DNA of 64,000 nucleotides, taken from NCBI RefSeq assembly GCF_034258515.1, contig NZ_CP139438.1:558001-622000 (forward strand). The letters are read 5' to 3'. Below are positions 51,258 to 52,742 of the stretch, piece by piece. The notes beneath the pieces were generated by a model. It was not told the origin of the DNA. It searched no databases and saw only the letters and a program-made list of their open reading frames with translations. Within the stretch, counting starts at the first letter, position 1. The number at the start of each line of letters is the position of its first letter. Made by a program: the position numbers and the translations under genes. The DNA comes from Pseudarthrobacter oxydans. Lineage in GTDB: Bacteria > Actinomycetota > Actinomycetes > Actinomycetales > Micrococcaceae.

Positions 51258-51317
51258 ATCGATTGCTCCGTACCTGCCGTTCTGGCACTCCTAAACGGCA
51301 GGTACGGAGCACTCGAT
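51258..51317. repeat. 60-base palindromic element, copy 1
   Basis: The two 24-base arms (51258-51281 and 51294-51317) are complementary at 23 of 24 positions and flank a 12-base centre, CTGGCACTCCTA. The arm begins ATCGATTGCTCCGTACC. It ends 11 bases before the DUF503 start and has no T-tract on the plus strand. Two related copies occur at 51627 and 52683. Confidence 0.85.
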
Positions 51318-51328
51318 AGCATGAAGGC

Positions 51329-51622
51329 ATGTGGATCGGCTGGATCGAATTCGACATCCTCCTGGGCGACGTCCAAAGCCTTAAGGAAAAGCGCTCCGTG
51401 ATCAGGCCGCTGCTCGCCGAGATCAGGAGGCGTTTCGACGTCTCGGTTGCCGAGGTGGGTGATCACGACCAGTACCGGCGCTCCCAGGTGGGCGTCGGCC
51501 TGGTGGCAGCAGACCGCGCCCACCTCATTGAGGTGCTGGACGCCGTCGAACGCTTCGTGGCAGCCCGGCCCGAGCTGGAACTGCTCAGTGCCCGGCAGCG
51601 TGACCACCACAGCGAGGACTAA
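51329..51622 (+). CDS. DUF503 (YlxP-like) protein
   Basis: The 97-residue protein has the DUF503 features VQSLKEKRSVIRPLLAEIRR and VAEVGDHDQYRRSQVGVGLV. Family members often lie near ribosome maturation genes in other bacteria, but here the gene lies between two palindromic elements. Function unknown. The ATG is a few bases after copy 1 of the palindrome. Confidence 0.88.
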   Translation: MWIGWIEFDILLGDVQSLKEKRSVIRPLLAEIRRRFDVSVAEVGDHDQYRRSQVGVGLVAADRAHLIEVLDAVERFVAARPELELLSARQRDHHSED

Positions 51623-51626
51623 CCCC

Positions 51627-51686
51627 ATCGACTGCTGAGTACCTGTCGTTTTCACGCGCGAAAACGACAGGTACTCAGCAGTCGAT
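51627..51686. repeat. 60-base palindromic element, copy 2
   Basis: The arms are perfect over 28 bases if the flanking C and G are included (51626-51653 with 51660-51687). The central loop is ACGCGC. The arm begins ATCGACTGCTGAGTACC. It differs from copy 1 mainly by paired changes that keep the stem intact. It lies four bases after the DUF503 stop and 53 bases before the DUF559 start. Confidence 0.9.
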
Positions 51687-51739
51687 GAGGGGTGTGGATA
51701 ACTTCTGCGGCCTGTCCCCGATTCTGGTCTCATGGACCG

Positions 51740-52681
51740 ATGAAGACGCCCCGCCCGTTGCCGGACGAACTCCGGACCGGCCCCTTCACCCTTGCAGATG
51801 CGGCGCTCGCAGGAGTGTCCCCGCGGCGCTGGCGTCATGGGTCGTTGGTGCGCCATGGCAGGGGCATCCGCATGGAACGCACGACGGCGGCGCTCCCCTT
51901 GAGTGCCAGGGTGCGGCCCTTCCTTGAGGTCAATGTGCGATGTGCCGCCTCGCACCTCACTGCGGCGGAGATCCTGGTCCTGCCGCGACGCCGGCAGAAA
52001 GGGAATCCGGAAATGTTTCACGTCATCAGGCCGGAGGGTGCGGCCCACCTCAACAGGCCGCATGTCATCGTGCACAGAATGAAGCTTTACAGCGACGAGG
52101 TGACGGTAGTCGATGGAATTCCCGTGACCACTCCGGAGCGCACCTGGCTGGACATGGCGGAGATGCTGACGGTGGACGAACTCGTGGTCATGGGGGACAG
52201 CTGTGTGCGGGTGCCCAGGCCGGAGCTCGAGGGCCGGGACATGCCGTTGTGTTCCATCGGCGATCTTCAGCGGATGATCAACCGGCACAAAGGCAAGCGG
52301 GGACTCCGCAAGGCCAAAGAAGCCATAGAGCTCATCAGGGTGGGCTCGGATTCGCCCCAGGAAACACTGCTTCGGCTGGCCGTAGCACGGGCCGGGCTGC
52401 CCGAACCCGAGCTGAACGTTCCCGTCATCTCGGAGGACGGCATGAGGCACCACGAGCCGGATCTCTCCTACCGGAAGTACCGGATCGGGATCGAATACGA
52501 GGGCGAACACCACGGCGAAGAGGGACAGATTGTGCGGGACATCGACCGGTCCGAGCGCTACGCAGCCCTGGGCTGGACCGAAGTAAGGATCTCGAAGCGC
52601 CACATGTTCAACGATGCGAAACCTGCGGTCGCCAAGATCCGGGCAGCGTTGATCCAGGCCGGCTGGCGTCGAGGCGATTAA
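51740..52681 (+). CDS. DUF559-domain protein (PD-(D/E)XK nuclease-like) with N-terminal AbiEi-type region
   Basis: The 313-residue protein has an N-terminal winged-helix-like part (LPDELRTGPFTLADAALAGV, as in AbiEi-type antitoxin-like proteins). Its C-terminal DUF559 / Vsr-like domain covers about residues 215-305 (GIEYEGEHHGEEGQIVRDID, then GWTEVRISKRHMF). This domain has a PD-(D/E)XK nuclease fold in other families. ATG at 51740 gives the family start; the frame is open from 51692. The gene is bounded by palindrome copy 2 (53 bases before) and copy 3 (starting two bases after the stop). Role unknown. Confidence 0.82.
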   Translation: MKTPRPLPDELRTGPFTLADAALAGVSPRRWRHGSLVRHGRGIRMERTTAALPLSARVRPFLEVNVRCAASHLTAAEILVLPRRRQKGNPEMFHVIRPEGAAHLNRPHVIVHRMKLYSDEVTVVDGIPVTTPERTWLDMAEMLTVDELVVMGDSCVRVPRPELEGRDMPLCSIGDLQRMINRHKGKRGLRKAKEAIELIRVGSDSPQETLLRLAVARAGLPEPELNVPVISEDGMRHHEPDLSYRKYRIGIEYEGEHHGEEGQIVRDIDRSERYAALGWTEVRISKRHMFNDAKPAVAKIRAALIQAGWRRGD

Positions 52682-52682
52682 A

Positions 52683-52742
52683 AACGACTGCTCCGTATTT
52701 GTCGTTCTGAGGGTTCAAAACGACAAATACGGAGCAATCGAT
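52683..52742. repeat. 60-base palindromic element, copy 3
   Basis: Arms 52685-52706 and 52719-52740 are complementary at 21 of 22 positions around the 12-base centre CTGAGGGTTCAA. The arm reads CGACTGCTCCGTATTTG. On the minus strand the stem is followed by TTTTTAAT, so it could also terminate purL transcription. It starts two bases after the DUF559 stop and ends 12 bases before the purL stop. Confidence 0.85.

Follow-up and report, generated by a model that had tools for sequence, protein, structure and literature searches.

REPtrons are composed, according to PMC8266576 and PMC3733652, of REP palindromes and a TnpA-REP (RAYT) tyrosine nuclease. The locus described here is located in a 64-kb stretch of Pseudarthrobacter oxydans DNA (the window; positions 558001-622000 of the 4.44-Mb single-contig genome), in which a gene for a predicted nuclease is bracketed by two copies of a palindrome of about 60 nucleotides (nt), named family A. 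It resembles a REPtron in three respects: copies of a palindrome that is dispersed between genes flank the nuclease gene, each enzyme has a cognate palindrome, and a genome may carry more than one type. It differs in the enzyme (a predicted Vsr-like PD-(D/E)XK domain with an AbiEi head instead of HUH/Y1), in the length of the palindromes (about 60 nt versus 20-40), in the GTAG at the stem foot, which is missing in families A and B, in the DnaA-box sequence before the gene, and in the host, a member of the Actinomycetes. The system behaves like a REPtron, yet is not a REPtron, as neither the HUH/Y1 enzyme nor the GTAG at the foot was found. Because enzyme and repeat are both unrelated to those of the known kind, it is counted as a new kind with a convergent architecture. 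It is probably one of many REPtron-like units of Actinomycetes, in which an AbiEi-head Vsr-like nuclease and its own dispersed palindrome have converged on REP/RAYT. Bracketed nuclease lineages possess distinct palindromes of their own, and gene and palindrome co-occur across genomes and diverge together. Same-family palindromes number roughly 10 to 33 copies per genome and are mostly intergenic, just past stop codons.

RAYT was rejected as the enzyme. The Y1/RAYT family (PF01797) was absent from all 10 palindrome-bearing genomes searched, with positive results in 5 of 14 controls, and the flanked protein is Vsr-like by predicted fold.

The features of the locus are listed in Table 1. The initial annotation had placed three 60-nt palindromes at 51258, 51627 and 52683; the positions are right, and the folds are far beyond chance. 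Single-strand DNA folding energies of copies 1, 2 and 3 are -28.6, -32.7 and -24.5 kcal/mol, with z values of -11.2, -13.3 and -10.5 (200 shuffles each, none of which equalled the real fold). The arm pattern derived from the three copies has seven matches in the window versus 0.49 expected, six of the seven being the copies' own arms. Copies 1 and 3 have unpaired positions close to the stem foot. The perfect pairing claimed for copy 2 was seen, its distance of 53 bases to the nuclease gene fits ATG 51740, which is very probably the start codon, and copy 3 does begin two positions past the end of the gene (52681 to 52683), with one base between stop codon and palindrome.

Table 1. Features of the nuclease locus (window coordinates)
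Feature	Position	Strand	Remarks
Family A palindrome, copy 1	51258..51317		solitary, between ABM-domain gene and DUF503 gene
Family A palindrome, copy 2	51626..51687		28 bp perfect; 5' bracket of nuclease gene
TGTGGATAA on + strand, complement of DnaA-box sequence TTATCCACA	51693..51701	-	47 nt before start codon
Nuclease gene, 313 amino acids (aa)	51740..52681	+	predicted AbiEi-like head, residues 3-200; predicted Vsr/I-Bth0305I-like PD-(D/E)XK domain, residues 203-310
Nuclease domain	52346..52669	+	E208, D241, G255, H258, D267 and R270 invariant in 22 homologs
Family A palindrome, copy 3	52683..52742		3' bracket of nuclease gene

Palindromes were called beside 72 homologous nuclease genes, namely the three P. 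oxydans genes and 69 loci taken from among the matches listed (29 automatic best matches and 40 picked by hand with flanks unseen), at a score of 14 or more (each match counting 1 and each mismatch -2), with loops no longer than 20 and, upstream, within 250 nt. An upstream palindrome was present at 39 of the 72 genes, a 3'-end palindrome at 40, both at 31 and at least one at 48. Of the 39 upstream copies, 28 end 50-69 nt ahead of the start codon, and of the 40 downstream copies, 36 begin at -35 to +37 relative to the stop codon. According to the initial annotation, copies occurring genome-wide beside unrelated genes, with no enrichment at homologs, would point to general terminators or repeats; the former was seen, the latter was not, the palindrome density being 2.08 per kb beside the 72 homologs (81 in 38.9 kb) versus 0.095 per kb in the rest of these loci (21 in 220 kb). 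In cross-locus counts taken without correction for relatedness, the arms of the two flanking palindromes match (score of at least 12) in 29 of the 31 bracketed loci versus 70 of 930 cross-locus pairs, and a palindrome is shared by 28 of 33 pairs with at least 60% protein identity versus 4 of 432 pairs below 60%. Protein and palindrome track each other with Spearman coefficients of 0.34-0.43, depending on the part of the protein, and 0.49 for the whole protein. The flanking palindrome of genome G008 gave 59 strand matches (30 places) there and none in seven genomes with other homologs; that of G143 gave 23 (12 places, three short and partial) there and none in seven others. The proposal that the repeated structure is linked to a PD-(D/E)XK protein in the manner of REP and RAYT is thus supported by enrichment, cognate pairing and co-occurrence, all of which are evidence of association. 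At locus L152, two near-identical palindromes are located 143 and 1768 nt past the matched part of the gene, about 1.6 kb apart, possibly as a local duplication.

A covariance model built from 18 genome copies was run on the whole P. oxydans genome; scoring was limited to 150 of 1,075 first-look candidates, which makes the counts of places lower bounds. At least 62 distinct places were found (124 strand matches), the weakest of which are partial. Of these, 56 were read, yielding at least 23 of family A (ATCGAYTGCTCCGTANNTGYCGTTTTGA...) and at least 33 of family B (CCCAACTAGGTAGCGCYAAGTGTCGTTTTGAG...), one of the latter being a hybrid form. The two families have a common loop-proximal core and different outer stems; family A begins ATCGA and family B CCCAACTAGG, with GTAG in B inside the stem only. 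The paired change of arm bases that had been noticed in the window is borne out by the 18 copies, where 25 cells are changed on both sides versus 11.5 after shuffling (none of 500 shuffles as high). Column pair 6/55 is unpaired in 8 of the 18. By rough open reading frame (ORF) calls, 51 of the 56 places are intergenic (21 convergent, 27 co-directional, 3 divergent), and 41 of the 56 are no more than 15 nt from a called stop codon or overlap it by up to 15 nt. This placement beside stop codons, together with the T-run that follows copy 3 on the minus strand, as stated in the initial annotation, is what would be expected if the copies were bidirectional terminators of the ordinary kind, or hairpins at mRNA 3' ends, and lay near the nuclease gene by chance. 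Such an origin is extremely improbable. A T-rich tract adjoins the stem in just 3 of the 56 copies and several have a further, separate GC-rich hairpin after them, and for these two reasons the copies are not taken for simple terminators; moreover, their sequence is family-specific and tracks the nuclease lineage. A scan of the window with Rfam returned three tRNAs and nothing else.

Some family A palindromes contain, nested at a single point, TGCTCC^GTA, another repeat (CCACCGG...GTGGGCCCA) of about 56 nt. It was observed in five palindromes of four genomes (L062, which is P. oxydans site 2213116, L084, L087 and L209), and other copies of it are present in L207, L211 and L090. The nesting point may be a cut site of the nuclease or may reflect target choice by another element.

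By predicted fold, the nuclease consists of an AbiEi-type head and a Vsr/I-Bth0305I-like PD-(D/E)XK domain. This assignment is based on VIA-align run on Foldseek's own candidates; with Foldseek by itself, no match reached E 0.001. Predicted fold and alignment agree with a Vsr-type PD-(D/E)XK core with conserved acidic and histidine residues, and the head is AbiEi-type in the predicted fold. The nearest nuclease folds are those of the homing enzyme I-Bth0305I and of Vsr. In contrast to both, the domain here follows an AbiEi-type head in the same protein and is linked to a dispersed palindrome; neither an intron nor a mismatch target is implied. The AbiEi antitoxins of type IV toxin-antitoxin systems (e.g. 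6y8q) differ in that the second domain is here a nuclease and in that no AbiEii toxin gene was recognised among the upstream and downstream neighbours. The Pfam families MTES_1575 and DUF559 (PF18741, PF04480) match 17 and 10 of 22 members, respectively, and the window protein scores 28.4 bits, below the curated cut-off of 38.2. These families cover the nuclease domain alone, and a repeat partner is unreported in the papers found. No title or abstract tying DUF559, AbiEi or MTES_1575 proteins to dispersed palindromes was found in a literature search that left subscription papers and preprints mostly outside its scope. PMC8861277 and PMC9454445 contain both DUF559 and palindrom-, and PMC12907096 is a Caulobacter study of a Vsr-like protein close to this enzyme. 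In the RepRanger paper (PMC12306157), Arthrobacter livingstonensis appears in a table with figures in the thousands; the words 'RAYT' and 'nuclease' are absent from its main text.

In the P. oxydans genome, three nuclease genes are clearly related and two further matches are weak. A copies bracket the window gene, and B copies bracket the second paralog. The family B paralog, at 1269421-1270391 (1269469-1270412 when taken as L054 1470-2413), is split by a frameshift. Family B palindromes are more numerous and more uniform than those of family A, despite the broken B nuclease gene, and the relative OY3WO11 has an intact family B nuclease of 314 aa. Among the genomes compared, the closest named relative of the P. 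oxydans genome is Pseudarthrobacter sp. GA104, whose nuclease is 98% identical to the window protein.

A homolog at E 1e-20 or better is present in 105 of 149 genomes of the host family; at most 14 matches were scored per genome, and counts per genome are lower bounds. The family A two-arm pattern was found in 10 of the 149 genomes, and a reversed control pattern in none of those 10. All seven genomes with the A gene (ortholog of at least 64% identity) carry the family A palindrome, versus 3 of 142 without it (hypergeometric 4e-10, phylogeny ignored); the seven have one A gene and 10-21 family A copies each. Among 17 named relatives, A palindromes are located on both sides of the A gene in 10 (score threshold 16), and weaker or interrupted upstream copies are visible in the alignment in several of the others. 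The orthologous downstream copies show 13 cells changed in both arms versus 5.3 after shuffling (none of 500 as high), with pair count and pair-type count matched by 27 and 37 of 500 shuffles, respectively. Palindromes of the type CGCGGGGTCAC (L187 1042-1104 and 1800-1858, L188 1384-1458; genomes G086 and G006) look like a third family. In G086 the position is directly after DUF503, which is the site of the A unit in other species.

Presence and absence of copies can be followed at single sites. The site of copy 1 is empty in L078, L079, L080 and L085. The solitary A site 1273680 is filled in P. oxydans, G150 and G039 and empty in G063, G137, G106 and G086; neither the A gene nor A copies are present in G063, G137 and G106. 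The B unit, which together with its two palindromes spans about 1.1 kb, is present in P. oxydans, in G150 and, diverged and with one internal stop, in G123, where the two bracketing palindromes are unlike the P. oxydans B type and yet alike each other. It is located between what we take, by eye, to be a purN-like gene and a transporter gene. These neighbours are 8-57 nt apart in G039, G063, G137 and G106, and other DNA occupies the site in G086 and G009. Presence or absence of the B unit as a block at one site, together with the nearest folds I-Bth0305I and Vsr, would suit a selfish pair similar to homing or restriction systems, in which the nuclease cuts chromosomes without or with the palindrome, gene conversion or addiction keeps the pair, and copies spread by repair and not by transposition. 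AbiE is the head of a toxin-antitoxin system, which points the same way. Such a pair is highly doubtful, as plain homing would not be expected to leave dozens of solitary palindromes at unrelated sites, and a toxin partner was not recognised beside the nuclease gene.

Across the class, a homolog at E 1e-30 was found in 95 of 197 genomes (at most 11 matches scored per genome; counts per genome are lower bounds). Of 28 loci read outside the host family, palindromes are on both sides of the gene in 6 and near just one side in 10, and the other 12 have none close by. Most palindromes from loci of family f23 are of a common GTTGATCATGGAGAA type. Four genomes of a single genus outside the host family (G152, G198, G215 and G308; family f7) have at least 10-11 homologs each at E 1e-30. 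Homologs occur in 3 of 72,556 plasmid records (E 1e-15), all of them Arthrobacter replicons of 0.75-1.35 Mb, and in 1 of 50,697 phage records (E 1e-10). Because homologs are so rare in these records, plasmid or phage cargo was ruled out, and the nuclease gene is regarded as chiefly chromosomal.

The sequence TTATCCACA, which we take from general knowledge to be a DnaA box, precedes most of the genes in its complementary form. TGTGGATAA is located 40-50 nt before the start in 59 of the 72 genes (42 exact, 17 with one mismatch) and 46-48 nt before it in 52; start codons were chosen inside the 40-50 nt range where possible, so that this range, as opposed to the inner peak, is partly by construction. 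It occurs once in the window, once (exact, both strands) in 222 kb of flanking DNA, and three times in 5.1 kb at the ends of the P. oxydans contig, which are taken as the replication origin. The box is constant and the palindromes vary, which makes a host factor, possibly DnaA, a likelier reader of the box than the nuclease.

The upstream position of copies also bears on a regulator with its regulon, in which the palindromes at many gene ends, and beside the nuclease gene itself, would be operators or architectural sites bound by the AbiEi head (with autoregulation at the nuclease gene), defence or repair would be the task of the nuclease domain, and the palindromes would be kept by selection on expression or chromosome structure and not spread by the protein. 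The AbiEi-like predicted fold, the spacing of the upstream copy (28 of 39), the proximity to stop codons (41 of 56) and the arm pairing kept at orthologous sites are consistent with this. It is unlikely, since autoregulation explains neither the downstream copy just past the stop codon nor the presence and absence of copies among relatives, the nuclease residues are invariant, and copies adjoin many unrelated genes.

For the REPtron-like unit, the nuclease would recognise its own palindrome, as a cruciform or as a single-stranded hairpin at the replication fork, and would nick or cut it, by which copies could be written at new intergenic places; binding of DnaA might couple expression of the nuclease to replication. 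In its fullest form, a DnaA-controlled Vsr/AbiEi nuclease would constitute an independent non-HUH solution to REP, recognising, cutting and spreading a 60-nt palindrome during replication and co-evolving into dozens of mutually exclusive specificities. This form is tentative and slightly more apt to be wrong than right. The present-day system appears mostly domesticated, as it is chromosomal, with one A gene per A-gene genome.

Several observations weigh against a palindrome spread by its nuclease. What suggests binding, cleavage or movement by the enzyme is association, and the cross-locus counts are uncorrected, as stated. No palindrome was found at threshold beside 24 of the 72 homologs, among them the third P. 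oxydans paralog, L055, and the two sides are mismatched at two of the 31 bracketed loci (L122 and L147). G086 has 19 A copies and an A gene neither at the usual site nor among the matches at E 1e-20; G019 (4 A copies) and G006 (1) are likewise without the A gene. The total of copies in the near-identical strain GA104 is about equal to that in P. oxydans. No clean insertion with target duplication was found at the empty sites, whose boundaries are blurred by divergence. The copies are imperfect, with 12.8% of the cells unpaired in the 18 P. oxydans copies, and placement next to stop codons would also fit a role at 3' ends.

If the REPtron-like unit is real, Actinomycetes possess an enzyme that is specific to dispersed palindromes and not related to RAYT, and a substrate can be assigned to a gene family whose current annotations are hypothetical, endonuclease-domain or AbiEi-type protein. 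A replication-timed nuclease would be suggested, and the open question of how REP-like palindromes spread could be put to the test in a second system. In vitro work could draw on many natural pairs of enzyme and substrate that differ in specificity, and these could yield sequence-specific hairpin nucleases.

The upstream neighbours of the nuclease gene are, by Pfam, DUF503, ABM and YjbR genes. The next gene downstream, on the opposite strand, is presumably a purL-like ORF, as recognised by eye.
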